A stretch of DNA of 64,000 bases, taken from the NCBI GenBank assembly GCA_018056955.1, contig JAGPEQ010000006.1, positions 1 to 64,000 on the forward strand. Direction: 5' to 3'. This document shows positions 2-27,444 of this stretch, piece by piece (positions within the stretch are counted from its first letter, which is position 1; each line of letters begins with the position of its first letter). Origin of the DNA: Bacteroidales bacterium (GTDB lineage: Bacteria; Bacteroidota; Bacteroidia; Bacteroidales; Tenuifilaceae). Under the pieces are notes generated by a model. That model was given only the letters and a program-made list of their open reading frames with translations. It ran no database searches and was not told the DNA's origin. A program made the translations under genes and the position numbers.

Positions 2-382
2 AAAACTGCTGAGCATGAGTATCAGATTACACTTACTAATGGTAAAATTACCTTTACCGATGGTACCACCTACACCCGTACTGTAGAGCGCACCCGTACT
101 TGGGTTGAAGGTTATGATACTCCGTTCAACATTTGGGATGATGTTTACACCCTGGAAGGTGAAGCCACAGGCGTAAACCGTAGAGGTTACACTTACAATC
201 ACCAAATTACCAGTGCACTCATGTTCAAGCTCTCGTGCAGGTGGTTGGTTCAAGGTGTGATTGATTTGACTGTAGGCGATAAGCAGGCCACTATTGATTA
301 CGGTAATGGTGATTGCGATAACATAGCTTACGTAACAGTTAATGGCAAAACCTACGAGGTAAAGCTGAGGGGTGGTAAATAG
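2..382 (+). CDS. C-terminal end of an unknown protein (5' end outside the window)
   Basis: The frame is open from base 2 to a TAG at 380-382, giving 126 codons. The start lies outside the window. The translation is rich in Thr, Tyr, Gly and Val with alternating polar and hydrophobic residues, which suggests an all-beta, probably exported domain. I see no catalytic motif and do not recognise the family. A strong intrinsic terminator follows 18 bases after the stop, supporting this as a real gene end. Its regular third-base pattern resembles the genes that follow. Confidence 0.6.
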   Translation, partial: KTAEHEYQITLTNGKITFTDGTTYTRTVERTRTWVEGYDTPFNIWDDVYTLEGEATGVNRRGYTYNHQITSALMFKLSCRWLVQGVIDLTVGDKQATIDYGNGDCDNIAYVTVNGKTYEVKLRGGK

Positions 383-3773: not shown

Positions 3774-4358
3774 ATGTACGAGTACATTCAGGGTTCCCTT
3801 GCCGAGCTGACACCAACCCATGCAATTGTTGATGCTGGTGGAGTTGGGTATTTTGTAAATATTTCGTTACAAACATACTCTCATCTGGAGGGTAAAACAC
3901 AGGTTAAGCTCTGGCTTCATCAAATTATCCGCGAGGATGCTCATTTGCTCTACGGTTTCACCGATGTACGCGAAAGGGAGATTTTCCGCTTGCTTATTTC
4001 AGTTTCTGGAGTTGGTGCTAGTACGGCAAGGCTTATTCTTTCGTCGCTTACTACCGATGAGATTCAGGCAGCCATTACCACGGAAAATGTTAACCTCATA
4101 AAACAGGTTAAGGGAATTGGCCTTAAAACGGCACAACGCATAGTTGTTGATCTTAAGGATAAGGTTTCCATAGGGGAGGCTACGGTTTCACAAATTTTAT
4201 CAACATCAAACAATACTTTAAAGAGCGAAGCGTTATCTGCATTGGTGATGCTCGGCTTTGCCCGTTCAGCTGCCGATAAGGTAATTGACCAGGTTCTGAA
4301 GGAAATGGGGCAAATGCCAGTTGAAGCGCTCATTAAGCATGCGCTCAAACGCTTGTAG
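3774..4358 (+). CDS. ruvA: Holliday junction branch migration protein RuvA
   Basis: A 194-residue protein with the three RuvA domains: an N-terminal OB fold starting MYEYIQGSL; a central pair of helix-hairpin-helix motifs (ISVSGVGAS and VKGIGLKTAQ); and a C-terminal three-helix domain around residues 150-194 that contacts RuvB. RuvA tetramers bind Holliday junctions and recruit the RuvB motor. ruvB and ruvC are not in the window. It sits between pdxA (12-base gap) and sprA, whose preferred ATG is 10 bases after the ruvA stop. The ruvA-sprA neighbourhood is, from memory, conserved in Bacteroidota. Confidence 0.95.
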   Translation: MYEYIQGSLAELTPTHAIVDAGGVGYFVNISLQTYSHLEGKTQVKLWLHQIIREDAHLLYGFTDVREREIFRLLISVSGVGASTARLILSSLTTDEIQAAITTENVNLIKQVKGIGLKTAQRIVVDLKDKVSIGEATVSQILSTSNNTLKSEALSALVMLGFARSAADKVIDQVLKEMGQMPVEALIKHALKRL

Positions 4359-4368
4359 TAACAGTAAA

Positions 4369-7300: not shown

Positions 7301-10300
7301 AGTTTTGGTTGATGGATCCGTTTGTGTACGACACGCTCAGTAGTGGCGGCGATTTTTACATCAACCTTGGTAACATCTCCGAGGATATTTTAAGGGATGG
7401 CCGAAAATCGTTTGAGAATGGACTACCCACCTCATCGGAGGAGCTTTCCAAAACCGATCAAACCGCCTGGGGTAGGGTTCCTACCAAGCAGTATCTGCCT
7501 GTTGGTTTCGATAACGACCAAGCTAAACGCCCCTACCAGGATATTGGATTAGATGGACTCTCCTCGTCGGTCGATTTGGATGGCGATGGGATACCCGATG
7601 AGCAGTTCTTCTTTTCGGAGTATATAAACCAGCTCAGGAATAAAATAACCAATAGCGATGTGCTCGCCGGATTTGAAAGCGATCCGGCAGGCGATAACTT
7701 CAGGCATTACCTTAGCGGGGTTTACGACCAACAGCGTGCCACCATTCTCGACCGATATAAGTACTTTAACGGAACCGAGAATAATTCGCCAGTTGCAACC
7801 GGAACTACCTCGCAGCAGAGCTACTCAACCCCCGATGTGGAGGAGCTGGGAACCGATAATACCATGAATGAAAATGAGGCTTACTATCAGTATCGCATTT
7901 CACTTCGCCCGCAGGACATGGAGGTTGGTAAGAATTTTATAACTAACGTTGTGACAGGCGATAAGGATAAAATTTTAAATAAAGCAGTAAAGTGGTATCA
8001 ATTTAAGGTTCCCATTGCAGAATACGAGAAGGTGGTTGGCCCAATTGAGGATTTCAAGTCAATCCGTTTCATGAGGATGTTCCTGCGCGGTTTCCAGGAT
8101 ACGGTTATACTACGTTTTGCTACGCTGCATCTGGTTCGTAGCGAGTGGCGTAAATACAATTACTCACTTATTCAAGGCCAGGAGGGTATGCCGGTTGGCG
8201 ATTTACCTTCAGGCAGCTTATCGATAGCAACCGTAAATATTGAGGAGAACGACAAACGAACACCCGTTAACTACGTATTGCCACCAGGCGTGGATAGGGT
8301 TATTGACCCAAGTCAACCCCAGCTTATCCAGCTTAACGAACAGGCCATGGAGTACAGGGTAACCGATTTGGCCGATGGCGATGCCCGTGCAGCGTTTAAG
8401 AATGTTAACATCGATATCAGGCAGTACAAACGACTCAAAATGGATGTTCATGCCGAGGCAATTGAGGGATATCCATTAAACGACTACGAGGTAAATGCTT
8501 TCATCCGTATAGGTACCGACTATAACACTAACTACTACGAGTACGAAATACCATTAAAGCTGACTCCTTACGGGTTTTACTACAATAGCCGGGAACGCGA
8601 TCGCGAGGCGGTATGGCCAAGGGAGAATGTAATTGATATCGACCTCGATAAGCTGGTTGATGTTAAAGTAGCCCGAAACAATGCCATGCAAAAACCAGGG
8701 TCGCTTATCACCCTGAATACTGTGTATGTTGTTCAAAGCGGGAACAGTAAGCTAAAAGTTACCGGAAATCCGAACCTTAGCAACGTTAAGGTAATAATGA
8801 TAGGAATTAGGAACCCTGCCGATGATAGAATGCCTAAATCGGTTATAGCATGGTTCAACGAGTTAAGGCTTACTAACTTTAACGATCAAAGTGGATGGGC
8901 AGCCAATGCCCGCTTATCGGCAAAACTTGCCGATTTGGGAATGGTTACCGTAGCTGGCACCACCATTACACCCGGTTTTGGTTCCATTGAGAAAAAGGTT
9001 AACGAGCGGAGCAAGGAGACAGTTTACCAGTACGATATCAACTCAACCCTTGAGCTGGGTAAGTTTTTCCCCGCCTCGTTCAACATTAAAATTCCAATGT
9101 TCATTGGATTCGGCGAATCGATGGCAAACCCCCAGTACAACCCGCTTGACCCCGATATACTTCTCGACGATGCCCTACGTAATGCATCGGAACGCGAAAG
9201 AGATTCCATTAAACGGATTGCCCAGGATTATACTCGCAGGCGAAGTATCAACTTCACCAATGTAAAGATTGATAAAATGGGCTCAAAGCCCCGCTTATGG
9301 GATCCCGCCAATATTTCGGTAAGCTACTCTTATAGCGAGATTTTCTCCCGTAACGTAAGAATTGATCATAGGATTCAGCGCAATATTCGGGGGGCGTTTA
9401 CCTATAATTATAATCGACAGCCCAAGTACATATCCCCATTTAGCAAGATAAAATGGTTAAATTCAAGCTATTTGGCTTTAATACGCGATTTTAACTTTAA
9501 CCTATTTCCAACCCAGCTCTCGTTCCGAACCGATCTGAATAGGAATTACTTTGAACAGCAATTCCGAAATATTCAGAACCCCAATCAGGTGTTTTTACCC
9601 ACATTTTCAAAGGATTTTATGTGGAATAGGAACTACTCCCTGAACTGGGATATAACCCAATCGGTTAAGTTTGATTTTGTGGCTACAGCTACTGCTCGTA
9701 TCGATGAACCTGAGGGCATGGTGGACAGGTATAGGGATAGGGACAGGTATGAGCAGTGGAAGGACTCGGTTTGGCAGAATATCCGTAGGGGTGGACGAAA
9801 CACCATGTACAACCATCAGTTTAACATAACCTATTCCCTTCCGTTAAGCAAAATTCCATTACTTAACTGGATTAGCGTTACATCGCGTTACACCGGAATA
9901 TACCGTTGGCAGGCTGGGCCAATTTTGGCCGATACTTCACGGTTCGATCCCGGGAATACAGTTCAGAACTCAAACACCATTCAGCTGAATGGGCAGGTAA
10001 ACATTAATACCTTATTTAATAAGGTAGGATACCTTAAAAGGGTTAACCAGCAGTTTGACCAGCGGGCAAGGGGGGCTGCACCCCAAACCCGAACGGTTAA
10101 GTATGAGGAGGAAAAGGTAAACCTTAGGGCAAATGCAACTAAGGTTATTACCCACAAGCTAAAAACGGAAAAGGTTACCGTAAAGGTTTTCGACCCCAAT
10201 GGCAAGGAGATAAAGGTAAGTTCACAGGTACGTGGCGACACCAAGGTAGCCATTAAGGCCGATGCCGATTATAAGAACTGCAAGGTTGTGGTTGAAGGCA

Positions 10301-11733
10301 AAGTCCCTGAAAAGATTAACCCCGCCAAGTTTGCCCTTGAAACCACACTCCGACTTTTGATGAGCGTAAAAAGCATGGGAGCATCGTACACGGAAACAAA
10401 CGGAACACTACTACCTGGTTATAAACCTGGGGTAAACTACTTGGGAACTGAGAACTTTAACGGTATGCTTGCCCCCGGCTGGGAATTTGTAGCTGGTTGG
10501 CAGGACCCCGACTTTGCTTGGAAGGCTGCTACTAATGGTTGGCTCACCCGCGACACATCGTTTAACACACCAGTAGTTTTTACTCGCAATGAGAATCTTA
10601 ACTTCAGAGCAACACTGGAACCTTTACCGGGCTTCCGTTTCGATGTTAGCGCTACGCGAACACTGGGTAAAAGCAATAGCAAAATTTTTAAATCCGATGG
10701 TTTGGGTTCTTACAGGGTGCTAAGTCCGCTCACAACAGGAAATTTCAGTATTAGCGTGCTTACCATAGGTACTGCATTCGAGGGTGGTAAACGGACTGGA
10801 AGCTCCAAGGCTTTTGAAAGGATGAAGCAAAACCGATTGGAAATTGCCTATAGGCTTCGCGATAGGAGGGTTGCAAATCCATCGCAGGGCTATGACCCCA
10901 ATGTGATAGATCCTGTTACAGGATTTCCCGATGGCTATGGGCCTTTATCGCAGGATGTTCTCAGGGCCTCGTTTTTGGCCGCTTACACCAATACATCCCC
11001 AAGCAAGGTCTCGCTAAGCGATTTTCCCCTTATACCAATGCCTAACTGGCAGCTATCGTACGATGGTTTGGCCAAGATGAAACCTTTTAAGCGTTGGTTT
11101 AAGTCAATTACTATCAATCATGGGTATCGATCGCTCTATACCATTGGGGCTTTTACAAGCAATCTTACCTATTTACCCGAGGATGATGGGTTTAGCTACG
11201 TTCGTAACATTAACGGCGATTTTGTCCCGCAGAACGAGATCACTAACGTTGCTATAAACGAGCAATTTACCCCATTGGTTGGGCTCGATTTGGGATGGAA
11301 CAATAACCTTACCAACAGGATCGAGATTAAGAATAGCCGTTCATTAGCCATGAGCTTTGCCAATAACCAGCTTACCGAGATTTATGGCAACGAGTTTATC
11401 GTAGGAGCTGGTTACCGGTTTGAGGATTTACCTCTTATTTTCCAGGCCGAGGATGGTGGTAAAAAGGCAATCAAGAGCGATTTACGATTAACTGTGGATT
11501 TTTCGCTACGCGATAATACTACCATTCTTCGAAAGTTGGTTGAGGATTCGAACGATATTATTGCAGGTCAACTGATTAGCACTATCAAAACAGCTGCTGA
11601 CTACCGGATTAATGAGAAGGTAACCATTCGCCTGTTCTTTGACCGCACCCTCAATAACCCTAAGGTTTCAAGAACATTCCGAACAACCAATACCAGCTTT
11701 GGATTTAGCGTCAGGTTTGAATTGGTTAACTAA
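4369..11733 (+). CDS. sprA: Type IX secretion system outer-membrane translocon SprA/Sov
   Basis: A 2454-residue protein, the largest in the window and close to the roughly 2400-2500 residues of known SprA/Sov proteins. SprA forms a very large outer-membrane beta-barrel through which T9SS cargo leaves the cell. The protein begins with an export signal (hydrophobic stretch IGILTLVTITITRAF, about residues 20-35). It then consists of long, aromatic-rich alternating strands with many Asn/Tyr turns and ends in strand-like FGFSVRFELVN, typical of a barrel terminus. The start is placed at the ATG at 4369 because the upstream in-frame TTG at 4321 lies inside ruvA. It is flanked by ruvA and gcvH. Other T9SS core genes (porKLMN, porV) are absent here. 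Confidence 0.93.
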   Translation: MLCKLRVKHLSHTHTIRIIGILTLVTITITRAFSVPIPQQDTLNLPFPIKQPGIWSIDTQYSPLYLSSPSNISEEVVFDPINNQYIIYRKVGNTTIETPRVLSADEYRSYRVEKAMREYWRQKQTGEFVGKGDGILPRIQVGGETFDRIFGSNTIEIIPQGNAELVFGVSSAKTDNPALPIDQRRNTTFDFQSKIQMNVSGKIGEKLKMEVNYNTEATFDFENNVKIEYNGFEDEIIQRIEAGNVSLPLPGTLITGSQSLFGIKTQLKFGKLNVTSVVSKQNGQTQVVEIKGGAQTRDFQLKADEYDANRHFFLSHYFRENYNRALMNLPIINSGVQITKIEVWVTNKQANFENSRNIIAFADLGEAQNNIFASNIFAQTGSGPASNGLNNLYELMTTTYAGIRDVAEVSNVLLPLESQGFTGGRDYEKIEYARKLSPNEFTINQALGYISLSSALNSDEVLAVAYEYTYNGQTYKVGEFSTDGVEAPKALILKLLKGTNLSPKMPTWRLMMKNIYSMNAYQISKDDFRLDIFYQDDATGTPINYIKEGNIAEVPLIRVLNLDNLNNQLDAFPDGVFDFIEGVTINPANGKIIFPVLEPFGRDLASRIGDPTIAQKYIFQELYDSSLTKARQVADKNKFLIGGSYKSAGGSEIFLNAPNIPKGAVVVTAGGVKLQEDVDFIVDYNLGTVRIINQGLLESGTPIKVAVESNALFSLQTKTLVGTHFDYRFSDNFNVGATIMNLTERPLTQKVSFGNEAVSNTIWGFNTSYQTESKFLTKMVDFLPFIQTKEKSTITFDAEFAQLIPGHSRAIGKAGTVYIDDFEGSSTSLDIRSWVEWKLASTPQGQPDMFPEASFSNDLRYGYNRAHLAWYYIDPLFLRNTSLTPSYLRNNKELQGNHFVREIFERELFPNKNTPQGQPTNISVLNLAFYPTERGQYNFNTTELDANGRLIDPQRRWGGIMRNLSTTDFEASNIEYIEFWLMDPFVYDTLSSGGDFYINLGNISEDILRDGRKSFENGLPTSSEELSKTDQTAWGRVPTKQYLPVGFDNDQAKRPYQDIGLDGLSSSVDLDGDGIPDEQFFFSEYINQLRNKITNSDVLAGFESDPAGDNFRHYLSGVYDQQRATILDRYKYFNGTENNSPVATGTTSQQSYSTPDVEELGTDNTMNENEAYYQYRISLRPQDMEVGKNFITNVVTGDKDKILNKAVKWYQFKVPIAEYEKVVGPIEDFKSIRFMRMFLRGFQDTVILRFATLHLVRSEWRKYNYSLIQGQEGMPVGDLPSGSLSIATVNIEENDKRTPVNYVLPPGVDRVIDPSQPQLIQLNEQAMEYRVTDLADGDARAAFKNVNIDIRQYKRLKMDVHAEAIEGYPLNDYEVNAFIRIGTDYNTNYYEYEIPLKLTPYGFYYNSRERDREAVWPRENVIDIDLDKLVDVKVARNNAMQKPGSLITLNTVYVVQSGNSKLKVTGNPNLSNVKVIMIGIRNPADDRMPKSVIAWFNELRLTNFNDQSGWAANARLSAKLADLGMVTVAGTTITPGFGSIEKKVNERSKETVYQYDINSTLELGKFFPASFNIKIPMFIGFGESMANPQYNPLDPDILLDDALRNASERERDSIKRIAQDYTRRRSINFTNVKIDKMGSKPRLWDPANISVSYSYSEIFSRNVRIDHRIQRNIRGAFTYNYNRQPKYISPFSKIKWLNSSYLALIRDFNFNLFPTQLSFRTDLNRNYFEQQFRNIQNPNQVFLPTFSKDFMWNRNYSLNWDITQSVKFDFVATATARIDEPEGMVDRYRDRDRYEQWKDSVWQNIRRGGRNTMYNHQFNITYSLPLSKIPLLNWISVTSRYTGIYRWQAGPILADTSRFDPGNTVQNSNTIQLNGQVNINTLFNKVGYLKRVNQQFDQRARGAAPQTRTVKYEEEKVNLRANATKVITHKLKTEKVTVKVFDPNGKEIKVSSQVRGDTKVAIKADADYKNCKVVVEGKVPEKINPAKFALETTLRLLMSVKSMGASYTETNGTLLPGYKPGVNYLGTENFNGMLAPGWEFVAGWQDPDFAWKAATNGWLTRDTSFNTPVVFTRNENLNFRATLEPLPGFRFDVSATRTLGKSNSKIFKSDGLGSYRVLSPLTTGNFSISVLTIGTAFEGGKRTGSSKAFERMKQNRLEIAYRLRDRRVANPSQGYDPNVIDPVTGFPDGYGPLSQDVLRASFLAAYTNTSPSKVSLSDFPLIPMPNWQLSYDGLAKMKPFKRWFKSITINHGYRSLYTIGAFTSNLTYLPEDDGFSYVRNINGDFVPQNEITNVAINEQFTPLVGLDLGWNNNLTNRIEIKNSRSLAMSFANNQLTEIYGNEFIVGAGYRFEDLPLIFQAEDGGKKAIKSDLRLTVDFSLRDNTTILRKLVEDSNDIIAGQLISTIKTAADYRINEKVTIRLFFDRTLNNPKVSRTFRTTNTSFGFSVRFELVN

Positions 11734-16745: not shown

Positions 16746-17543
16746 ATGAAAAAGCTATTCACACTAGTAGCAGTATTGGGAGTGCTCTCGTTTGGAGCAT
16801 CAACCTTTGTTAATGCACAGGATGAACCTGCAGCAAAACCTGACTCAGCAATGGTTCAGGAGCAAGCAGCTCAGGCTGCAACACCTGCAGCTCCTGCTGT
16901 TGAAGAACAATCGTTACACAAGGCTATTAAAACCAAATTCATTGAGGGTGGTCCTGGATTTATGGCTTCCATTCTTTTAACCTTAATTTTTGGTTTAGCT
17001 ATTGTAATTGAGCGTATTATTTACCTAAACCTTTCTACTACCAATACCAAAAAGCTTCTCAATGCCATTGAGGATGCTCTAAAAAATGGTGGTGTTGAGG
17101 CAGCAAAGGAAGTGTGCCGCAATACCCGTGGCCCTGTTGCCAGCATTTTCTACCAAGGTCTTGACCGTGTTCACGAGGGTATCGAAGTTGTTGAGAAATC
17201 AATTGTTACCTACGGATCGGTTATGATGGGTCAGCTGGAAAAGGGATTAACCTGGATTTCACTTTTCATCGCAGTTGCTCCTATGTTAGGGTTTATGGGT
17301 ACTGTTATCGGTATGATCGGTGCTTTTGATGCTATCCAAGCTGCTGGTGACATTTCTCCGTCGCTTGTTGCTGGTGGTATTAAGGTTGCTCTTATCACTA
17401 CCGTGTTCGGTCTTATTGTTGCTATTATTCTTCAGGTGTTCTATAACTACCTGCTCAATAAGATTGATAGCATCACCAATGAAATGGAAGACGCTTCAGT
17501 AAGTCTGCTCGATATTCTTGTTAAGTTTAACCTTCAAAAGTAA
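16746..17543 (+). CDS. exbB: MotA/TolQ/ExbB proton-channel protein with cleaved leader
   Basis: A 265-residue inner-membrane protein. It starts with a signal peptide ending near VNAQ (residue about 24), followed by an Ala/Pro/Gln-rich periplasmic stretch that is not found in short ExbB proteins. Three transmembrane segments follow at about residues 77-97, 170-190 and 210-235. The MotA/TolQ/ExbB core is recognisable from LGFMGTVIGMIGAF and the Thr/Ala-rich last helix. With the two ExbD proteins downstream it should form a proton-driven motor that powers outer-membrane transport through TonB-like partners. It is the first gene of a four-gene operon. Confidence 0.92.
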   Translation: MKKLFTLVAVLGVLSFGASTFVNAQDEPAAKPDSAMVQEQAAQAATPAAPAVEEQSLHKAIKTKFIEGGPGFMASILLTLIFGLAIVIERIIYLNLSTTNTKKLLNAIEDALKNGGVEAAKEVCRNTRGPVASIFYQGLDRVHEGIEVVEKSIVTYGSVMMGQLEKGLTWISLFIAVAPMLGFMGTVIGMIGAFDAIQAAGDISPSLVAGGIKVALITTVFGLIVAIILQVFYNYLLNKIDSITNEMEDASVSLLDILVKFNLQK

Positions 17544-17549
17544 TTGGCC

Positions 17550-17981
17550 ATGAATAGCTCATTATCAACCTATACCAAGGTTCTTTCGTGGCTATTAATG
17601 GGTGTTTCTATTGTTATAACCATACTATTCTTTTTGAGCAACCAGGATATTGAATCTGTAGAACCATTCATTGATTGGGCTTATATTCTGTTTGCCATAG
17701 CAGCCGTTTCGGCATTAGTTTTCCCTGTTGTAAACCTTGTAAGAAACCCCAAGAATGTCACTAAATCGTTGGTAGGATTACTGGCAGTTGCTGTAATCTT
17801 TGTAATTGGCTATGTTTTGGCCGATGCTACTCCAATTCCATCGCCAACTCAAAACGCTGACCTTTCAAATCCTACCGTTCTGATTATTAGCGATACCGGT
17901 TTAATAGCAACATACCTGTTATTTGGCATTTCTATGCTATTGTTGTTATATACCGGCGTTCGCAGTGCATTCCATAAGTAG
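17550..17981 (+). CDS. Hypothetical four-helix membrane protein in the ExbBD operon
   Basis: A 143-residue protein with four predicted transmembrane helices (about residues 12-28, 45-62, 72-92 and 112-135). There is a periplasmic-looking loop with repeated Pro between helices 3 and 4. The ATG at 17550 is preferred to the in-frame TTG at 17544, only 6 bases earlier. It lies 6 bases after exbB and 58 bases before exbD, so it is part of the operon. I recognise no family. Its position suggests an accessory subunit or modulator of the ExbBD motor, which is inference only. Confidence 0.75.
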   Translation: MNSSLSTYTKVLSWLLMGVSIVITILFFLSNQDIESVEPFIDWAYILFAIAAVSALVFPVVNLVRNPKNVTKSLVGLLAVAVIFVIGYVLADATPIPSPTQNADLSNPTVLIISDTGLIATYLLFGISMLLLLYTGVRSAFHK

Positions 17982-18039
17982 TTTAAACAAATGGTTAGCC
18001 GGCTCAGTTCGGCTAACCTGAAAAATACTAAGTATAAAG

Positions 18040-18615
18040 ATGGCAAGAAAAGTTCCAGAAGTAAATGCCAGTTCAACTGCCGACATTGCGTTCTTATTGC
18101 TCATCTTCTTCCTGATGACCACTACTATGAACGTGGATACGGGTCTTACGAGGATGCTTCCACCAATGCCCGATCCCAATCAAAAACAGGATGATGTTGA
18201 GGTTAAGCGCAGGAATATTTTCTCTGTACTTATCAACAAGAGCGATAAGTTACTTGTCCGTGGTGAACCCATGGAGGTTGGCATGTTGAAGGAGAAGACC
18301 AAGGAGTTCATTATGAACCCGAATAGCGACCCCAACCTTTCCGAGTTTGAGGAAAAGGATATACCTGGAATAGGTAAGTTTAAAGTTTCAAAGGGTGTTG
18401 TTTCTCTTCAGAACGACCGTGGTACATCGTACGAAATGTACATGAAGGTTCAGAACGAGCTGGTTGCTGCATACAATGAGTTACGCGACGAACTATCAAC
18501 TTCAGTTTACGGAAAGCCTTTCAGCAAGTTAGCCAAGGAAGAGCAAGAAACAATTTCTAAGGCCATCCCATTGAAGATTTCCGAAGCTGAACCTAAGAAC
18601 GTAGGAGGAAAGTAG
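18040..18615 (+). CDS. exbD: ExbD/TolR-family biopolymer transport protein (first copy)
   Basis: A 191-residue ExbD-like protein with one N-terminal transmembrane helix (about residues 15-30) carrying the conserved proton-pathway Asp in STADIAFLLL, then a periplasmic domain. The periplasmic part is longer than in E. coli ExbD (141 residues) and is mostly charged and helical. It pairs with ExbB and the second ExbD encoded two bases downstream. Having two different ExbD subunits in one operon is common in Bacteroidota, from memory. Confidence 0.9.
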   Translation: MARKVPEVNASSTADIAFLLLIFFLMTTTMNVDTGLTRMLPPMPDPNQKQDDVEVKRRNIFSVLINKSDKLLVRGEPMEVGMLKEKTKEFIMNPNSDPNLSEFEEKDIPGIGKFKVSKGVVSLQNDRGTSYEMYMKVQNELVAAYNELRDELSTSVYGKPFSKLAKEEQETISKAIPLKISEAEPKNVGGK

Positions 18616-18617
18616 TT

Positions 18618-19091
18618 ATGGCTAAGTTTGAACGAAAAGGTAAAAACGAGTTGCAGGCTATTTCAACTGCCTCGCTTCCCGATATTGTGTTCATGCTTCT
18701 CTTCTTCTTCATGGTTAGTACAACCATGCGTGAAACCACGCTAATGGTTCGTAGCCAGCTGCCCGAAGCCACTGAAGTAAACAAGCTGGAAAAGAAGTCG
18801 TTGGTATCGTATATCTACATTGGTCCTCCTATGAGGCAGTTCCAATCTCTGTTTGGTACTGAGCCCCGCATTCAGCTTAACGATTCTTTCAAGTCGCTCG
18901 ACGATATTCGCGATTTTATCGCATCGGAGCGTGAAGCAATGAAGGAAGATGAAAAGCCCTTGCTTACCACATCGCTAAAAATTGACAAGGAAACCCGTAT
19001 GGGTATTGTTACCGATGTTAAGCAGGAGTTGCGTAAAGCCAGTGCACTCAAGATTGTTTACGCTGCCCGCAAGGCCGATAAGAAAAAGTAA
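18618..19091 (+). CDS. exbD: ExbD/TolR-family biopolymer transport protein (second copy)
   Basis: A 157-residue ExbD-like protein with an N-terminal transmembrane helix containing the conserved Asp in SLPDIVFMLLFF. The periplasmic domain ends with a KQELRKASALKIVYAA segment resembling the C-terminal fold of ExbD. It begins two bases after the first exbD stop. Sequence differences from the first copy are large, so it is a functional paralogue rather than a recent duplicate. A strong terminator ends the operon. Confidence 0.9.
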   Translation: MAKFERKGKNELQAISTASLPDIVFMLLFFFMVSTTMRETTLMVRSQLPEATEVNKLEKKSLVSYIYIGPPMRQFQSLFGTEPRIQLNDSFKSLDDIRDFIASEREAMKEDEKPLLTTSLKIDKETRMGIVTDVKQELRKASALKIVYAARKADKKK

Positions 19092-19113
19092 TTTGCTTTT
19101 TATACCATTATTT

Positions 19114-19147
19114 CAGGAAGCTGCCCTTGGGCAGCTTCCTGTTTTTT
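19114..19147 (+). terminator. Intrinsic terminator of the exbBD operon
   Basis: A stem of 12-13 base pairs (CAGGAAGCTGCC and its complement) with a tiny loop is followed by T6, 22 bases after the last exbD stop. Confidence 0.9.
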
Positions 19148-19183
19148 AACACCTTTTAATAAACTGAACTAAAGGCTTGTATG

Positions 19184-19211
19184 TTGCTCCAACTTTTTTA
19201 GTGTAGTTTTG
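19184..19211 (+). promoter_or_regulatory. Promoter for the alkaline phosphatase gene
   Basis: A TTG at 19184-19186 lies 17 bases before a perfect -7 element TAGTTTTG (19204-19211), and the ATG is at 19250. No obvious Pho-type operator is seen. Confidence 0.55.
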
Positions 19212-19249
19212 TTATCAATACATTCAATAAATTTTTTAAATCACAAGAG

Positions 19250-20650
19250 ATGAGAGCACGAACCCTAATAACAATTTTGCTCGCTATAGCAATGGCTTCC
19301 TGCGGGAAACATGAACCCAAGGCAAAGTATGTATTTTACTTTATTGGCGATGGAATGGGAGTATCGCACGTGACACTTGCAAAGCTGTATGCCGATAGCG
19401 TTTTACTCGACAGCACGGCAATGTCGTTTACCCGTTTCCCCGTCACTTCGCTTTCTACTACCTATGCACATAACAGGTATGTTACCTGTTCAGCAGCTGC
19501 CGGAACTGCTCTTTCAACCGGTACCAAAACTTCAATCAACACCATTGGTTTAACTTACGATAGGACAGATACTTTATACAGTATTGCAAAAAAGTTTAAG
19601 GAAGCTGGGAAAAAAGTTGCCATTTTAACCAGCGTAAGCATTGACCATGCAACACCGGCAGCTTTTTATGCCCATGTTGGCTCACGTGGCAGTTACTACG
19701 ATATTGCTAAACAGCTGCTGAAGTCAAATTACGATTTTTTTGCATCGGGTGGTTTCCTTGAACCCTATGGTACCAAAACCGATTCCAATGCCGTTAGCGT
19801 ATACGAGTTGGGAAAGGTTAGAGGTTGCCAATTTACATCATCGCTAACGGAGGTAGACTCTTTGGTGGCAGCAGGAGCAAAATCCATTGTTTACTCTGCC
19901 CCAAATCCTGCACCCAGCAGCACATTACAGTATGAAATTGACCGTTCGGAATCCGATATAAGCCTTGCCGACATTACCCGTAAAGCCATTGAGGTAGTGG
20001 ATAACCCCAATGGTTTCTTTATTATGGTTGAAGGGGGCAAAATTGATTGGGCTGCCCATGACAACGATGCAGCAACTGTGATACATGAAGTGCTTGCTTT
20101 TGCCCGTGCTATAGATGTTGCCTTGGAATTTTACAGGAAACATCCTCACGAAACGTTAATAGTGGTAACTGCTGATCACGAAACTGGTGGACTTTCAATT
20201 GGGAACAGGGAAAACAAGTACGATTTTCACGTAAAGTTACTCCATTACCAAACTGCATCCGAGGAGCGTTTACATAAGCTTATTGCTGAATTTAAGGAAC
20301 AAAACCCAAAGGCAAAGTTTGACGATTTGCTGAAGTTCTTGGCCGATAAAACAGGGCTTTCAAAAGATATTGAGCTAAACGAAAACGATATCAAGATGCT
20401 GAAAGATGCATACAACGTAGCCTTTAAGGGTTTAAAATCAAATGAAAAAACCACATACAGCGAAACTGATCCCATATCAAAGGTTTCCATTCAGATACTA
20501 AACTCAAAGGCTGCAGTAGGGTGGACATCGGGCTCACATACTGGTCAACCCGTGCCAGTATTTGCAATTGGCAGTGGTCAGCAGCTATTTGTTCCTTTGC
20601 TCGATAACACCGATATCCCCAAAAATATTGTTAGAGCTGCAGGCATATAG
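19250..20650 (+). CDS. Alkaline phosphatase, lipoprotein form
   Basis: A 466-residue alkaline phosphatase. A lipobox ending MASC (Cys18) predicts membrane anchoring. Family motifs are FIGDGMG (Asp34 metal ligand), TCSAAAGTALSTG with nucleophile Ser81, HATPAAFYAHV followed by a substrate-binding Arg, EGGKIDWAAHDND, TADHETGG and the late GSHTGQ. It should release phosphate from monoesters in the envelope. The residue before the nucleophile is Cys80 rather than the usual Asp. An inserted charged region at about 340-400 precedes the last metal motif. The gene stands alone between two terminators. Confidence 0.92.
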   Translation: MRARTLITILLAIAMASCGKHEPKAKYVFYFIGDGMGVSHVTLAKLYADSVLLDSTAMSFTRFPVTSLSTTYAHNRYVTCSAAAGTALSTGTKTSINTIGLTYDRTDTLYSIAKKFKEAGKKVAILTSVSIDHATPAAFYAHVGSRGSYYDIAKQLLKSNYDFFASGGFLEPYGTKTDSNAVSVYELGKVRGCQFTSSLTEVDSLVAAGAKSIVYSAPNPAPSSTLQYEIDRSESDISLADITRKAIEVVDNPNGFFIMVEGGKIDWAAHDNDAATVIHEVLAFARAIDVALEFYRKHPHETLIVVTADHETGGLSIGNRENKYDFHVKLLHYQTASEERLHKLIAEFKEQNPKAKFDDLLKFLADKTGLSKDIELNENDIKMLKDAYNVAFKGLKSNEKTTYSETDPISKVSIQILNSKAAVGWTSGSHTGQPVPVFAIGSGQQLFVPLLDNTDIPKNIVRAAGI

Positions 20651-20675
20651 CCTAAACCATAAGCGAAATTAAATA

Positions 20676-20707
20676 TAAGGGAAGGTTAAACCTTCCCTTA
20701 TTTATTT
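20676..20707 (+). terminator. Intrinsic terminator after alkaline phosphatase
   Basis: TAAGGGAAGG, a TTAAA loop and its perfect complement are followed by a T-rich run, 25 bases after the stop. The A/T ends allow some bidirectional activity. Confidence 0.85.
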
Positions 20708-20856: not shown

Positions 20857-22491
20857 ATGAAAAAGGGATATTTGCTTTTGGCCTTACTACTTAGTGCCAA
20901 TATTTACGCTCAGGATATTGAAAAAGGGAATCGCATTCCATCCACCTACGACCGTAGTTCCATCACAGTGTTCTACATGAAGTTCCCGGGCGAGAATCAC
21001 GCTTCCGAGGTTGAGGCAAAATTCCCAAAAATTAGGTTAACCGATAAGTATTACGACAACAGCCTCAATTACATGGTATTTGAAGCACCATTCTCACGTG
21101 GCGATGTGTCAGTTGTTCCTACCAAAGCCATTGAGAGTTTCCTTATGCAGAAGCAAGTATCAAAATCGATTGTAAGTAAATGGTATAACCGTAAGGATGA
21201 TGGCTCGATGGATCTCGACCTCATTTTCGATAGGGGGATGTTTAATGCTACCGACGCCCAGTACATAAAAGCCCAAGCCACAAAGCGAGGCGATAATATA
21301 CTTAAGGATTATGGGAACCGCCTGATTGAGAAGAGCTACATACTGGTGCTTGATTACCAGAATGTACTCACCATGAAAGAGGCTAAGGTTGAGAAAATGA
21401 AGGGATGGAAGGCCACCGTTAATGGATATCTTTATAAGGTAAAGTTCAATGAGGAAACCCAGAATGCGCTCTACGATTGCTGGATTTATCCTGAAGACTC
21501 TCCCGCTGTTCGTCAGGAAAAAATTAAAAAGTTCCAGGAACTAAATATTCCTATTGAGTTTGTTACTCAAACTGTTGTTTATGCCACCGCCTCGCAACCC
21601 ACTGAGGATACTCAGCTTGGTAAATTAATTAAACAAAAAACCGAGGATCAGTTACTTACAGAACTTGTTCAGAAAGGATACGATGAAAGCCTTTACTACC
21701 TTGAAATGAAACATGAAGATTTCATGGTAAAAACCACCATTCATCAGGTTAGGCCAATTCGGGCTAAAATTGGGTTGAAGGAAGGGTTAAAATGCGATCA
21801 CCGCTACTTTGCCTATGAGTATGTTTACAATGAAAAAACCAACAGCGTGGAGCCACGTTTTAGAGGTGTAATTCGCGCAACCAGTAAGATTGTCGATAAC
21901 CGGCAGGTTGCCAAAGGCGATATGCCTACCTCGCAGTTTTACCAAACTGCAGGTAGAAGGCTACGCGAGGGATATCTGATTCGTCAGCAGAACGATCTTG
22001 GCCTAGAGTTACTGGTTGGCTATGAAGCTGGTGAGGTTGGTGGTATTTACGGCAGAATTGATGCACGTATGGGTCGATATATTGGTATAAAAGCCCTGTT
22101 TGTTTACGTTGAGGGTGGTGTTCAGGCAAAGGATTATGAAATTGGATTTGTAAATTACGAGAACATTGCCTTCTTACACTACGGAGCAGGTTTGGCTAAG
22201 GGATTCATGCTAACTCGCAACCTGGAATTGCGCCCATATATTGGCTTAGGGCAGGAACAGGCTAATCAATCGGATTTGTCCAGTAGCACGTTAAAAGCTC
22301 TTTACCTGAAAGCTGGGGCAAATTTGGCACTAAATTTGAAACATAACATCCAGCTAATGGGTGGTATTGGTTCATACTCATTTATCAGTAATGCAGAAGA
22401 AGGAGGTACTGATACCGGATTAACATGGGACGAAAAATTTACTGACCGTAAAGGTGCAGCAGTAATGTTTGGTATTAAATTTATGTTCTAA
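20857..22491 (+). CDS. Exported protein with probable outer-membrane beta-barrel end; unknown function
   Basis: A 544-residue protein with a clear signal peptide cleaved after IYAQ (residue about 19). Residues 20-270 form a mixed, charged region. The segment at about 300-390 (GLKEGLKCDHRYFAYEY, then VIRATSKIVDNRQVAKGD) looks like a conserved domain I cannot name. From about 390 onward, short alternating strands and a last strand ending GIKFMF suggest an outer-membrane or barrel-like domain. It heads a co-oriented run with gaps of 20, 14, 11 and 57 bases, all encoding exported proteins. The function is unknown. It is the only candidate membrane-spanning component of the set. Confidence 0.8.
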   Translation: MKKGYLLLALLLSANIYAQDIEKGNRIPSTYDRSSITVFYMKFPGENHASEVEAKFPKIRLTDKYYDNSLNYMVFEAPFSRGDVSVVPTKAIESFLMQKQVSKSIVSKWYNRKDDGSMDLDLIFDRGMFNATDAQYIKAQATKRGDNILKDYGNRLIEKSYILVLDYQNVLTMKEAKVEKMKGWKATVNGYLYKVKFNEETQNALYDCWIYPEDSPAVRQEKIKKFQELNIPIEFVTQTVVYATASQPTEDTQLGKLIKQKTEDQLLTELVQKGYDESLYYLEMKHEDFMVKTTIHQVRPIRAKIGLKEGLKCDHRYFAYEYVYNEKTNSVEPRFRGVIRATSKIVDNRQVAKGDMPTSQFYQTAGRRLREGYLIRQQNDLGLELLVGYEAGEVGGIYGRIDARMGRYIGIKALFVYVEGGVQAKDYEIGFVNYENIAFLHYGAGLAKGFMLTRNLELRPYIGLGQEQANQSDLSSSTLKALYLKAGANLALNLKHNIQLMGGIGSYSFISNAEEGGTDTGLTWDEKFTDRKGAAVMFGIKFMF

Positions 22492-22511
22492 CTTTAAAAT
22501 AGTATAGGTGT

Positions 22512-23033
22512 ATGAGAAAAGTTTTATTAGGATTTACGGTTGCAGTGCTTGCTATGGTAATGGTTTTACCGACTAATGCACAAACCCGCAAGGAGCGGAA
22601 GATTTTATGGAATAGCCAGTATAACTATGAAATTGAACCGGTTGGTGTTGGACAGGATGGTACAAAAGTGTTTAAGGTTTGGGGATACGGTAAGGATGTT
22701 GGCACTGCAGTTATGAATGCCAAAGAGGCTGCTGTAGCAGCTTGTATATTTAAAGGACTACCTGGCGGAGGAGGCTCTGCTCCTACCCCTCCTATTTGCT
22801 CCCAGCCCAACGCTGAACAAATTCATGCCGATTACTTTGAAAAGTTCTTTGAGGTGGGAGGTAAGTACCTTCAGTACATTGCCGTAACCAACGATGCAGA
22901 CCCTTCGGGTGAGGATCGTATTAAAATGAAGAAAGGATACAAGGTGGCAATCTACGTTCAGGTTATGTACGATGCTTTACGTAAACAGCTCGAAGCCGAT
23001 GGCATCGCACGTCGTCTGGATTCAGGATTCTAA
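22512..23033 (+). CDS. Exported LPP20/FlgT-like small protein, unknown function
   Basis: A 173-residue protein with a signal peptide ending TNAQ (residue about 24). The mature part has a GYGKDVGTAVMNAKEAAV segment, the glycine-then-alanine spaced helix typical of LPP20/FlgT N-domain-like folds. A Gly/Pro-rich insert (residues about 82-95) follows, and then a strand-like YKVAIYVQVMYDALR. It has two cysteines, one on each side of the Gly-rich insert. It is the second gene of the operon. The family assignment is by pattern only. Confidence 0.7.
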   Translation: MRKVLLGFTVAVLAMVMVLPTNAQTRKERKILWNSQYNYEIEPVGVGQDGTKVFKVWGYGKDVGTAVMNAKEAAVAACIFKGLPGGGGSAPTPPICSQPNAEQIHADYFEKFFEVGGKYLQYIAVTNDADPSGEDRIKMKKGYKVAIYVQVMYDALRKQLEADGIARRLDSGF

Positions 23034-23047
23034 TACATGATGCAAAT

Positions 23048-24007
23048 ATGAAACGAATACTACTATCAATTTCGTTGCTTGCCCTCGCGGTTATAGCATT
23101 TGGTCAGGCAAAAAAGCCCATAATAATGGTTGTTCCCAGCGATCAGTATTGCATTAGCCGTGGGTATAAAATGGAGTTTAACAACCAGGGTTTGAAACAG
23201 GTTCTCCCCGATTACAAAACCGCCCTGCAAACCGATCCCGATTTACGTTTGGTTATAACCAAAATGGGCCAAATAATGGCCGATAGGGGTTTCCCTCTTA
23301 AGGACCTGGAGCAGGAACTTAAAAATCTGGAGCAGGAACGTGCCGAATCGTCTATGTTAACAAGTTCATCGAGCGGTTCAGAGATGGCCGAAAGTCCAAT
23401 TGATGCTTTAAAACGTGTTGCCAAGGCCGATATCATAATGGACCTGGACTTTGAGGTAAAGCGCCAGGGACCTCAGAAGTACATTGTGTTTAACCTAAAA
23501 GGTCTCGATGCATACACTGCAAAGCAGGTATCGGGTGTTGCAGGGGCAGGTAGCCCATCCACATCGGCTTCACCTGAGCTTTTGCTCGAGGAAGCAGTAC
23601 TTAGCCACATGGATAACTTCAACGCAGGTCTCATGCGACATTTTGAGGATATGTTTGCAAAAGGCCGTGAGGTTAAGGTACAAATTAAGGTTTGGGCTAA
23701 CTGGGGCGAGAATCTGGAATCAGAGTTTGGCAGCGATGGCAAAGAACTATCAACCATTATTGAGGACTGGTTTGCCGATAACTGCGTGGAAGGTCGCTTT
23801 AACCTTTCCGATGCAACCGAAAACTTCATGAAGTTTGAGCAGGTTCGTATCCCTATGATGCGTACTGACGAAAAAGGTCGCCAAAGAGCAGTTGACACCC
23901 GCTCATTTGTTAGCGATTTGCGCAAGTACCTGAACGGTATGGGAATACCCTCAAAGCTGTACATGCGCGGTTTGGGTGAAGCTTGGCTAATACTAGGTGA
24001 AAAGTAA
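23048..24007 (+). CDS. Exported DUF6175-like protein
   Basis: A 319-residue protein with a signal peptide ending AFGQ (residue about 20), followed by KKPIIMVVPSDQYC, which I associate with DUF6175 from memory. A Ser-rich linker (about 102-115) precedes KRVAKADIIMDLDFEV, a segment like the periplasmic lipoprotein-like folds of LpoB/CsgG relatives. The C-terminal half ends in a charged helix and strand (LYMRGLGEAWLIL). No catalytic motif is visible. It lies 14 bases after the previous gene and 11 before the next, so it is surely co-transcribed. Confidence 0.75.
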   Translation: MKRILLSISLLALAVIAFGQAKKPIIMVVPSDQYCISRGYKMEFNNQGLKQVLPDYKTALQTDPDLRLVITKMGQIMADRGFPLKDLEQELKNLEQERAESSMLTSSSSGSEMAESPIDALKRVAKADIIMDLDFEVKRQGPQKYIVFNLKGLDAYTAKQVSGVAGAGSPSTSASPELLLEEAVLSHMDNFNAGLMRHFEDMFAKGREVKVQIKVWANWGENLESEFGSDGKELSTIIEDWFADNCVEGRFNLSDATENFMKFEQVRIPMMRTDEKGRQRAVDTRSFVSDLRKYLNGMGIPSKLYMRGLGEAWLILGEK

Positions 24008-24018
24008 CTGATATTAAA

Positions 24019-24990
24019 ATGAAAAAGTTAATACTATCAATAGTTGTGCTTGCAGGTTTTGTATTAAACCTAAGCGCACAAAACAGCCAAGGAAAAGCTG
24101 ACGACATGGGCAGAATAGCACTTGCTGCTATTGTTCCCGAACAGGCAACCGGTATCCCTCAGGAGGCTCGACAGATGTTAGTAAACAAGATGAGCCAGAT
24201 TGCTACACAGAACGGTTTAGGCGCTACTGCTGCTAATCCACGTTTTTGCATAGTCCCGCTCGTAACCGTGATTAGCAAAGAGGTTACTCCAACTGCACCC
24301 CCAATGCAGGCTGTTAATCTGGATGTTACCTTTTATATTGTTGATGCTGCTAGCCAAAACATCTTCAGTCAAACAAATATATCCGTTAAGGGCGTTGGTC
24401 AATCCGAAGATAAAGCATACATTCAGGCTTTAAAGAACATCAATGTTAAGGCTGGTCAGTTTAAGGGGTTCATTGAAAAAGGTAAGGAAAAGATCATTGA
24501 ATACTACAACTCTCAGTGCGATGTAGTGCTAAAGGGAGCCCAAGCTCTTGCCGGACAAAGAAAATACGAAGAGGCTCTTTTCGTTCTGCTCTCAGTTCCC
24601 GACGTTTGCCGCGAATGCTTTGACAAGAGCAAGGATTTGTCCGTCGAGATTTATAAGCAGTACGCCAACTACAAATGTACTGAGTACATGGCTGGCGCAA
24701 AGGCTGCATGGGCTAACATGAATGCCGATAAGGCAGCTGAGTATTTAGGCAAAATAACTCCCGACATGGAGTGCTACGCCGATGCGGTAAGACTAACCGA
24801 CGAAATCACCCAGAAAATGCTGGCCGATGGTGCTAACGTATGGAATTTTAAAATGAAACAGTACGACGATTCCATTGAAAAAGATAAGATGATGATACAG
24901 GCTGGCAAGGAAATTGCAGTAGCTTGGGCATACTGGGGGGCTGCTCCATACTTCAACTGGGATTGGAGTTGGTTGTACCAGCAGAAATAA
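24019..24990 (+). CDS. Exported protein with LPP20-like and TPR-like parts, unknown function
   Basis: A 323-residue protein with a signal peptide ending LSAQ. Residues about 90-150 contain strand-rich sequence and VKGVGQSEDKAYIQALKNI, the same G-x-G then spaced-Ala helix seen in its operon neighbours. Residues about 170-290 are helical with repeat-like KYEEALFVLLSV and DKAAEYLGKI units, resembling TPR or Sel1-like helices, and include several Cys. The Trp-rich tail (WDWSWLYQQK) is unusual. The function is unknown. Confidence 0.72.
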   Translation: MKKLILSIVVLAGFVLNLSAQNSQGKADDMGRIALAAIVPEQATGIPQEARQMLVNKMSQIATQNGLGATAANPRFCIVPLVTVISKEVTPTAPPMQAVNLDVTFYIVDAASQNIFSQTNISVKGVGQSEDKAYIQALKNINVKAGQFKGFIEKGKEKIIEYYNSQCDVVLKGAQALAGQRKYEEALFVLLSVPDVCRECFDKSKDLSVEIYKQYANYKCTEYMAGAKAAWANMNADKAAEYLGKITPDMECYADAVRLTDEITQKMLADGANVWNFKMKQYDDSIEKDKMMIQAGKEIAVAWAYWGAAPYFNWDWSWLYQQK

Positions 24991-25047
24991 CCTGATAATT
25001 AATTTAATAACAATTTGATTTTAAGTTTAACCAAAAAAAGAATGACT

Positions 25048-25623
25048 ATGAAAATGAGAAATTTATTAATGGTTGCCGGCATTTTTACCTTTGCTTTTAT
25101 GCTGGCTAGTTGCGGTGGTTCAAAGAAAGCTGCAGACAGCTCATTAGGTAAGGAAATTAATGTTCCTTGCAACGACGATGAGTTCCACACCGATGCCAAG
25201 TACTTCCGTGGCACTGGCAATGGCATTAGCAGCGATTTAAGTACTGCAAAGAGCAAAGCTCGTATCGATGCACAAACCAACCTTTCACGTAGCATAAGCA
25301 CTACCATGAAGGCTGTTGCTGACCGTTATGTGAACGAACGTCAGGTTGGCGATGCCATGGAGTTTGAACAGAAGTTTGAGCAAATGACCCGTGAGGTTAT
25401 CAACCAGGAGCTGAATAACGTTGAAGTGGTTTGTACCAAAACTTTCCAGAAAGAAGGTCGTTACCAAGTATTCAATGCTCTTCAGGTTCCAAAGGATCAG
25501 GTTCTAAACAACATTAAGGACCGTATTTCAAAGGATCAGAAACTACAGCTCGACTACGATAAGATGAAATTCGAGCAAGTATTCAACGAGGAAATGGAAA
25601 AGATGGCTAAAGAACGCCCATAG
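25048..25623 (+). CDS. LPP20-family-like lipoprotein
   Basis: A 191-residue lipoprotein with lipobox MLASC in the context of a long hydrophobic signal. The mature protein begins with a short Ser/Ala linker. It then shows YFRGTGNGISSDLSTAKSKA and a long polar helix, a strand GRYQVFNALQVPKD, and a terminal charged helix, matching the layout of LPP20-like lipoproteins. ATGs at 25042, 25048 and 25054 are all possible starts, and 25048 is chosen as giving a good basic N terminus. It lies 57 bases after the previous gene and is followed by a terminator. Confidence 0.78.
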   Translation: MKMRNLLMVAGIFTFAFMLASCGGSKKAADSSLGKEINVPCNDDEFHTDAKYFRGTGNGISSDLSTAKSKARIDAQTNLSRSISTTMKAVADRYVNERQVGDAMEFEQKFEQMTREVINQELNNVEVVCTKTFQKEGRYQVFNALQVPKDQVLNNIKDRISKDQKLQLDYDKMKFEQVFNEEMEKMAKERP

Positions 25624-25641
25624 TTTTCCTATTCATTTCAC

Positions 25642-25675
25642 ACAGCAGCCCCAACCATTGGGGTTGCTGTTTTTG
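25642..25675 (+). terminator. Intrinsic terminator inside the exported-protein gene set
   Basis: A 13-pair stem (CAGCAGCCCCAA paired to its complement, one G-U) with a CCA loop is followed by T5. It separates the LPP20-like lipoprotein gene from the last gene of the set. Confidence 0.85.
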
Positions 25676-25724
25676 TAAAATTATTTTACTTGCCAATCCC
25701 CTTTTGGGGTTAAAAAATGTGAGT

Positions 25725-27014
25725 ATGAAAAAGATATTACTTCTTGCTTTATCCGTTCTGGGGGTTATAGCTCTAACCTTTGCCCAGGATAAACTACTGG
25801 AGAAAAGCGGAAAACAACCCAAATGGGTGAATGGTTTGGAAAAGGATTTCATAATCGTAACGGGTACAGGCCCAACCGCCCAGGATGCCCAGCAGAACGC
25901 CCTTTCAAATGTAAAAGCACAAATAGTGTCATCCGTAGCCGAGTATGTTAAGGCAAGTTCCGAGGTACGTAAAGAGGAGGCCAGTTTCAACAATAATGTT
26001 AATGCCTTCCTTGAAAAGTTTGCCACCACTACAACCACCCAATCAGGAAAAGTACCTTTTCTGCAAGGGATTTCTATCTCCAAGGTTAGTGAGTTTTACT
26101 GGGAAAAACGTCAGCGTGCCGACAAATCGGTTTACTTCATTTACCACATAAAGTACCCTTTCCCGGAATCAGAGCTGAAAATGCTAGTGCTTGACTACAA
26201 GATGCGCGACCGTGAGCTAACACGCCAGATGGAGGATTTGCTGGAGCAAGTTGATAAGGTAGAATCTGTTGAACAGATTGAAAAAAACATTGCTGAGCTC
26301 GGCTCGCTTAAGGATTACTTCATGGATGGAAGAGTTGACCAGTGTAATCTTGGTATTACCCGATACAAATCATTGCTTAGCTCCATTGAACTTGTTGAAC
26401 TGGAAAGTAATCTTGGTGAACTTAAGTACTACTTGCGCTTGAACGGGCGAGCCATTTCCACGGCTAAGAAGCCCACAACCAAATCGGAATGTGCCCGAAT
26501 TACTTCGGTTATCAACAATTCCGATAATGTGGTTATTAAATATAACTATGAGAATTGCTACGAGGACCCGGAGAATAATATTTTGGTAAAATACATGTTT
26601 GGAGGTGTAACCGTTCAAAAACCTTTCTATTTTGATGTTGCAGCCAACAAAGCATCAATTTTCTTATCGGACCCCATACATTTGAATGCCATTGCAAAGG
26701 ATGATGTAACGGTTACCGGAATAATAGTTGATATGACCATTCGCTCCAAGTACGATTCTCATTTTGTGGTTGAAAAGGTTGTGCTGGAATGGAAGGGTTT
26801 CCCTCCTGTAGTTATTGAGAATATTGGGCAATCGTTCAAAGGGAAGGGAAATCATACCTTGAAAGTAAACTCTGACCAGTCCCTTAAGATTGCTGAAACA
26901 TCCTCGTCGGATAAAACCCTATCGTTGCTCTCAGGTTATATCCACTACCGCGATGCCTCAGGCGAACTAAAGACTTACAGGATTTACAACCACAGCTACA
27001 CCACCGATTGGTAA
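25725..27014 (+). CDS. Exported protein with LPP20/FlgT-like N-domain, unknown function
   Basis: A 429-residue protein with a signal peptide ending TFAQ. Residues about 30-150 have the layout of the preceding lipoprotein: KQPKWV, then FIIVTGTGPTAQDAQQNAL (G-x-G followed by Ala-spaced helix), then the strand VYFIYHIKYPFPE. A coiled-coil-like charged helix follows (about 165-200). The C-terminal half is beta-rich without motifs I know. The ATG at 25725 is chosen over the TTG at 25704. A terminator separates it from the upstream genes, so it may be expressed partly on its own, but the shared domain argues for a common system. Confidence 0.72.
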   Translation: MKKILLLALSVLGVIALTFAQDKLLEKSGKQPKWVNGLEKDFIIVTGTGPTAQDAQQNALSNVKAQIVSSVAEYVKASSEVRKEEASFNNNVNAFLEKFATTTTTQSGKVPFLQGISISKVSEFYWEKRQRADKSVYFIYHIKYPFPESELKMLVLDYKMRDRELTRQMEDLLEQVDKVESVEQIEKNIAELGSLKDYFMDGRVDQCNLGITRYKSLLSSIELVELESNLGELKYYLRLNGRAISTAKKPTTKSECARITSVINNSDNVVIKYNYENCYEDPENNILVKYMFGGVTVQKPFYFDVAANKASIFLSDPIHLNAIAKDDVTVTGIIVDMTIRSKYDSHFVVEKVVLEWKGFPPVVIENIGQSFKGKGNHTLKVNSDQSLKIAETSSSDKTLSLLSGYIHYRDASGELKTYRIYNHSYTTDW

Positions 27015-27035: not shown

Positions 27036-27066
27036 AATAAAAAAAGGCCTTTACGGCCTTTTTTTA
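27036..27066. terminator. Bidirectional terminator between the exported-protein set and the SiaC-like gene
   Basis: AAAAAGGCC, a TTTAC loop and GGCCTTTTT lie between convergent stops. The A-run and T-run serve both strands. Confidence 0.87.
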
Positions 27067-27444
27067 TTCCTTATATGATTCCAACTTGAAAGGTATCTTG
27101 ATATGATTTGAGAGTTCTTTCCCAGCATCTTTTATATCGATGTCATCCTCATTATACATCCAAACTATACTTATTTTGTGGCCATCCTGAGCAATTTTTT
27201 CAAATCGCTTCAGTACCTGAAAAAGCATTTTTGAGCTGGGGGTATTGTAGTAAATCATTTTAAATCGTACCACTGTTTCAGGATTTGGGCTCTTTGCATA
27301 CTCTTCAATCCAAGTAATTATTGGTTCGAAAAATGATTTTGCATCCTCAGGTAAAGAGTTTCCTTTAAACTCAAAGACACCTGCATCCTTATCGAGAGTA
27401 ATGGTTGGATATTGGCTGGTACCGTTAACCTTTAATGGTTCCAT
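27064..27444 (-). CDS. SiaC-family (DUF1987) regulatory phosphoprotein
   Basis: A 126-residue cytoplasmic protein matching the SiaC/DUF1987 pattern, with the FKGNSLPEDAKSFFEP segment and the phosphorylation-site motif YYNTPSSK, where Thr68 corresponds to the phosphorylated Thr of Pseudomonas SiaC. In that system SiaC is modified by kinase SiaB and phosphatase SiaA and activates the diguanylate cyclase SiaD. None of those partners is near, so its partner here is unknown. It is a single-gene unit with its own -7 element, convergent with the exported-protein set. Confidence 0.85.
   Translation of the reverse strand: MEPLKVNGTSQYPTITLDKDAGVFEFKGNSLPEDAKSFFEPIITWIEEYAKSPNPETVVRFKMIYYNTPSSKMLFQVLKRFEKIAQDGHKISIVWMYNEDDIDIKDAGKELSNHIKIPFKLESYKE

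Follow-up and report, generated by a model that had tools for sequence, protein, structure and literature searches.

In Vibrio, the proteins FlgO, FlgP and FlgT build the H ring, an assembly associated with the outer membrane (PMC6504787; PMC6375700), and FlgP is also the protein of the Campylobacter basal disk. The SHS2 fold is common to LPP20, FlgP and FlgT and, within this group, rings occur where an insert follows the SHS2 helix (PMC12222027). Both the H ring and the basal disk are known as accessories of the flagellum. Here we describe a set of six genes, named A to F, in a 64,000-nt stretch of DNA (the window) from a Bacteroidales bacterium of the family Tenuifilaceae (assembly GCA_018056955.1, contig JAGPEQ010000006.1, positions 1 to 64,000). 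The products of the set are predicted to bring together FlgT-, CsgG- and LPP20-type domains. No FliF/YscJ was found in the genome, whose assembly (2.76 Mb in 130 contigs) is 93% complete, and therefore we consider that the bacterium has no flagellum.

All six products look exported: each starts with a hydrophobic signal, a sequence scan gave no additional strong transmembrane helix, and a lipobox (LASC) is found in E alone, the other five carrying Sec-type signals. The first-pass annotation of the window had described six consecutive plus-strand genes for exported proteins, the first five separated by gaps of 11–57 bases, with one lipoprotein, one DUF6175-like protein and a barrel-like end on the first gene. 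This description was confirmed throughout, the spacings from A to F being 20, 14, 11, 57 and 101 bases (Table 1). The closest named record is a Bacteroidales metagenome-assembled genome (MAG; locus L062), in which C is 97% identical.

These genes travel together. Two samples were searched, one of 148 relatives and another of 395 genomes drawn across the phylum and many of its families, and the neighbourhood profiles were built on domain envelopes owing to the existence of fused proteins. Among the relatives, C was found in 50 genomes, B in 45, F in 40 and E in 51; the counts for A and D, once weak matches were dropped, were 43 and 50. C and D occurred together in 48 of the 148 (p = 6e-34), every genome with B also had C (45/45) and every genome with F also had D (40/40). 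Outside the family of the window, 26 genomes shared C and D, two had C only and none had D only (p = 1.5e-24), and in the phylum sample C was present in 19 genomes and D in 18, all 18 being shared (p = 3e-30). These p-values are inflated by shared ancestry; nevertheless, many families are represented in the sample, and the large majority of its genomes lack the genes. Moreover, for 50 of 56 copies of C, D lies on the same strand within 8 kb, nearly always 11–289 bases downstream. Thus, A–F is a conserved unit beyond chance, within which E–F is a looser, partly separable module that in some genomes is located apart from A–D. The set is accessory, since it occurs in around one third of the relatives and about 5% of the phylum sample, compared with 141 of 148 relatives for SprA.

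What do the proteins of this set look like? When all window proteins were searched against Pfam and NCBIfam, C was the only one of A–F to receive a family name: it matches DUF6175 (PF19672) over its full length with 382.7 bits (cut-off 23; E-value 1.3e-114). Pfam gave no match for B. B and C form a single protein at locus L081, and this natural fusion was modelled with AlphaFold2 (AF2), giving a predicted local distance difference test (pLDDT) score of 80.2; the alignments, here and for A, consisted of the window proteins plus named relative loci, nearly all of them MAGs. In a Foldseek search the model found FlgT (3w1e) at the top (E-value 1.8e-4, probability 0.93), followed by GNA1162, CsgG and PelC. 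Alignment with VIA-align gave Z 10.5 for CsgG (4q79; root-mean-square deviation (rmsd) 3.9, 130 residues) and Z 9.9 for PelC (5t11; rmsd 2.7, 113 residues), both covering model residues 164–351, which correspond to the first domain of C. The alignment with FlgT extended further (model 50–433 to chain 2–282; Z 8.8, 198 residues) with an rmsd of 16.2, and therefore it is the single domains that match while their relative placement differs. By predicted fold, B is thus FlgT-N/SHS2-like and the first domain of C is CsgG/PelC/FlgT-M-like, in line with the hhalign value of 88.6% between C and a CsgG-like set. The second domain of C (alpha/beta; window 23650–24004) is a high-confidence part of the L081 model and is barely covered by the structure matches listed, which span model residues 74–356. 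The model of B also shows a helical insert of around 50 residues (81–131) after the SHS2 helix. We found no paper on DUF6175, a family without assigned function that here gains a fold and a genomic context.

Profile comparisons suggest that D is an exported protein in which TPR-like helices come after an alpha/beta domain of CsgG/LpoB-like type. Indeed, D matched the CsgG-like set with an hhalign value of 87.8% over 51 columns and a group of LPP20-Ig-D fusion proteins with 90.6% over 111 columns, and TPR-type matches were obtained in part of its orthologues. Controls remained between 0.8 and 2.2% (the CsgG-like set gave 2.2% with F and 0.8% with B), and nothing useful came from comparing A with either C or D, or B with either E or F. 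C and D thus resemble the outer-membrane lipoproteins CsgG, PelC, LpoB and GNA1162 through the first domain of C and the profile link of D. They differ from them in that neither carries a lipobox and no export substrate was seen near A–F. Also, none of the A–F proteins of the window matches the CsgG or LpoB families of Pfam; such matches come only from proteins that occupy the place of A in distant clusters.

As judged from its profile, E is an LPP20-type lipoprotein. The protein of the window scores below the Pfam cut-off for LPP20 (PF02169; 14.3 against 25.9 bits), the family was matched in 13 of 18 orthologues of E (best E-value 4e-4), which is weak yet consistent, and the E profile found LPP20 (5ok8) in the PDB as a weak match across most of its length (E-value 0.012). 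The lipidated cysteine is nearly invariant. F is apparently an exported protein with an N-terminal LPP20 domain followed by a helical segment and a beta-rich C-terminal half, which might be Ig-like. LPP20 was matched in 7 of 23 orthologues of F, and F aligned with E (92.6%, through the shared LPP20 domain) and with the LPP20 portion of the LPP20-Ig-D fusion proteins (95.8%), in which LPP20 itself exceeds the Pfam cut-off. E and the N-terminal domain of F resemble the Helicobacter Lpp20 family; they differ from it in scoring below the Pfam cut-off, in the large C-terminal part of F and in their operon partners. The literature contained no paper that we could find on LPP20 operons in Bacteroidota. 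At locus L081, a 320-amino acid exported protein encoded downstream of F (7832–8791) begins with what reads like an LPP20/FlgT-N motif and may replace E in that lineage. The genome of the window also encodes a second pair of this kind, an LPP20-Ig lipoprotein and a TPR lipoprotein (locus L105, contig C21, 4961–7721), between groEL and ftsZ-ftsA-ftsQ. The former scores 48.6 bits with LPP20 and has an LptE/CsgG-like C-terminus. Six of the seven relatives examined keep this pair.

The AF2 model of A (pLDDT 78.7) consists of a periplasmic domain, a short beta region and a C-terminal eight-stranded barrel (Table 1). The barrel is of the OmpA/OprF type (OprF 4rlc, Z 16.4, rmsd 2.2 over 130 residues; OmpA 1qjp, Z 15.6) and differs from those proteins in lying C-terminal to a periplasmic domain and in being missing from many homologues. 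A visual count based on the matched range gave around 30 homologues of the long form, with the barrel, and around 19 of the short form; some genomes carry both. The barrel is thus an optional, not a defining, part of the set. No CsgG- or FlgT-type chain was listed for A, in a comparison where barrel matches filled the list and the N-terminal domain was barely tested. In the distant clusters L025, L027 and L095, the place of A is taken by a CsgG/LpoB protein according to Pfam (CsgG, 21.0, 34.3 and 25.3 bits respectively, cut-off 20.8; LpoB, 21.8, 37.4 and 33.8 bits, cut-off 22.3), the last one with a weak trace of FlgT_C. The C-terminal part of these proteins aligned with the short beta region of A with an hhalign value of 55%, at low confidence; such values are only suggestive because a signal-peptide match alone reached 65%. 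At locus L024 a separate barrel-like gene adjoins a short A (OMP_b-brl, E-value 8e-6, slightly below the cut-off).

The order A-B-C-D was found again in several families, with rearrangements. All six genes are present at L084, in the cultured Perlabentimonas gracilis M08_MB. B is duplicated in tandem at L023, L085, L086, L089 and L101, and is fused to C at L081–L083, L096, L098, L099 and in the distant members L029–L032, where a D-like domain also follows an LPP20 domain resembling E within one protein. A gene for a WG-repeat protein lies between D and A at L024 (7960–9534) and L089 (3557–5248). WG-repeat, guanylate cyclase and outer-membrane barrel genes in or near the clusters recur too rarely to be counted as parts of the set.

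In consequence, the interpretation given in the first-pass annotation is partly supported. The genes are co-located across genomes and their folds, compared by structure and profile, are largely related (FlgT, CsgG, LpoB and LPP20), as it had anticipated, and its impression that the set was new agrees with the lack of any description found in the literature. The G-x-G and Ala-rich helix motif that it read in B, D, E and F is visible; the single common domain proposed from it has to be abandoned, because E and F are LPP20-type, B is FlgT-N-like and the motif of D falls within the final strand and helix of its CsgG/LpoB-like domain. For the same reason D is no longer LPP20-like, and the barrel loses the defining role it had been given. 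The idea of one six-gene set stands for the co-conserved A–D and less so for E–F, partly separable and with a hairpin before F.

Starting from what the analysis shows, namely the gene set, its co-conservation, the predicted folds of the A barrel and of B-C and the absence of FliF, we infer a physical complex, its ring shape, its partner and its function. Given that an insert behind the SHS2 helix accompanies ring formation, that FlgO, FlgP and FlgT build the H ring, and that the model of B has an insert at this place, the best single reading is that A–F would form a periplasmic ring or scaffold associated with the outer membrane, working like the H ring in bacteria without a flagellum (probability around 45%). 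The lipid anchor of E and the barrel of the long form of A would hold the complex to the outer membrane, B and C would jointly resemble FlgT (FlgT-N plus FlgT-M), and E and F would contribute FlgP/LPP20-type domains. Domains of the CsgG/LpoB/FlgT-M type would come from C, D and probably also A; in known relatives, among them CsgG and PelC, these domains are stacked to give rings or collars. The complex might then reinforce the outer membrane around another envelope-spanning machine, or dock it. The likeness to the H ring and to FlgP thus lies in the FlgT-like fold of the B-C fusion, in LPP20-type domains having the fold of FlgP (PMC12222027) and in the presence, side by side, of a lipoprotein, CsgG-like proteins and an anchor in the outer membrane. 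The differences are the genome without FliF, the splitting and rearrangement of the genes, and the addition of the second domain of C, the TPR of D and the barrel of A; no Pfam FlgT or FlgO match was obtained in the window proteins.

Several points weigh against this reading. The structures were predicted for single chains, whereas the ring is a further step; the AF2 models are those of A and B-C, and the folds of D, E and F come from sequence profiles. The whole-chain match to FlgT has a very high rmsd, the insert of B is helical, unlike the beta-hairpin of FlgP, around 40% of A homologues stop before the barrel, and E occurs without the rest of the set, 15 relatives having E without C. Also, the CsgG, LpoB, TolB-N, PelC and LptE folds serve many functions, some of them outside rings. 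An evolutionary version, that A–F is a non-flagellar, accessory ring machine of the Bacteroidota outer membrane that shares ancestry with the H ring and is assembled on a barrel from split FlgT-, CsgG- and LPP20-type proteins, is rather doubtful. If true, the parts of the H ring would be members of a broader group of ring systems outside the flagellum. A conserved FlgT/CsgG/LPP20 set in a genome without a flagellum makes it possible to test whether these parts also serve in another role.

Since the CsgG fold is common to LpoB, PelC, TolB-N and LptE, peptidoglycan regulation and export remain live rivals of the ring or scaffold. D and its partners could span the wall and stimulate a class A penicillin-binding protein like LpoA/LpoB of Gammaproteobacteria, with the LPP20 proteins and the barrel as anchors. 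The union of a CsgG/LpoB-like domain with TPR-like helices in D agrees with this, and so do the LpoB scores of two A-slot proteins, above the cut-off, although the LpoB and CsgG models overlap and the match does not discriminate. A further point in its favour is the second LPP20-Ig/TPR pair, which adjoins ftsQAZ in this genome, although that neighbourhood is not kept in the seven relatives examined. A presence in about one third of relatives would be odd for a core wall regulator and, to our knowledge, Lpo systems include no counterpart of the FlgT-like B-C, so we regard such a role as unlikely. A somewhat smaller chance is left to a secretion or assembly apparatus in which C, D or A would be a CsgG- or PelC-like channel or collar exporting a surface polymer. 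CsgG and PelC are among the top fold matches of C, and the A-slot proteins match CsgG in Pfam, but the neighbourhoods surveyed showed no recurrent substrate, synthase or chaperone gene. The CsgA/E/F partners that CsgG has in curli secretion were not noticed there either, in a survey that included no search aimed at them. An eight-stranded barrel, moreover, has no pore of export size.

It is quite improbable that the set is an energised accessory, driven by or scaffolding the upstream ExbB-ExbD-ExbD proteins or belonging to the type IX secretion (T9SS) or gliding apparatus. The order ExbD-ExbD-alkaline phosphatase-A occurs in the window and at seven loci (L062, L064, L073, L079, L084, L087 and L104), but it is confined to close relatives and missing from more distant loci, and therefore these genes are probably not part of the set. 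A adjoins RuvA and SprA at L102, and SprA lies around 9 kb upstream of A in the window (4321–11733); its presence in 141 of 148 relatives, against around 50 for the set, speaks against a core T9SS part, and co-occurrence with so nearly universal a gene was discarded as uninformative. Just as improbable is that the six proteins act separately in the periplasm or outer membrane and are merely co-regulated. The relatives with E but not C, the genomes with E–F apart from A–D and the hairpin that cuts F off would fit such independence, but the co-occurrence of A–D is almost perfect and fusions exist between B and C and between LPP20 and D, which usually denotes physical or functional coupling.

Terminator-like hairpins, identified as pattern matches only, stand before A and between E and F, and for this reason A–E are likely to form one transcript.

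Table 1. Features of the A–F locus (window positions, except for the domains of A, given as residues).
Feature	Position	Strand	Description
ExbB, 145-aa (amino acid) membrane protein, two ExbD, alkaline phosphatase	16746-20650	+	Pfam; precede A
Terminator-like hairpin, symmetrical	20675-20701	both	12-pair stem, 5' of A
Gene A	20857-22491	+	Open reading frame (ORF), 544 aa
A, periplasmic domain	residues ~30-295		alpha/beta; AF2
A, short beta region	residues 315-378		AF2
A, outer-membrane barrel	residues 379-544		8-stranded; AF2
Gene B	22512-23033	+	ORF, 173 aa
Gene C	23048-24007	+	ORF, 319 aa
Gene D	24019-24990	+	ORF, 323 aa
Gene E	25048-25623	+	ORF, 191 aa; further ATG at 25042
Terminator-like hairpin	25642-25670	+	13-pair stem, T-rich tail, between E and F
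Gene F	25725-27014	+	ORF, 429 aa

Matches below threshold, such as that of VasX_N on A, were taken as chance. A gene for a SiaC-family phosphoprotein (27064–27444, minus strand) follows F in convergent orientation and is kept in close relatives.

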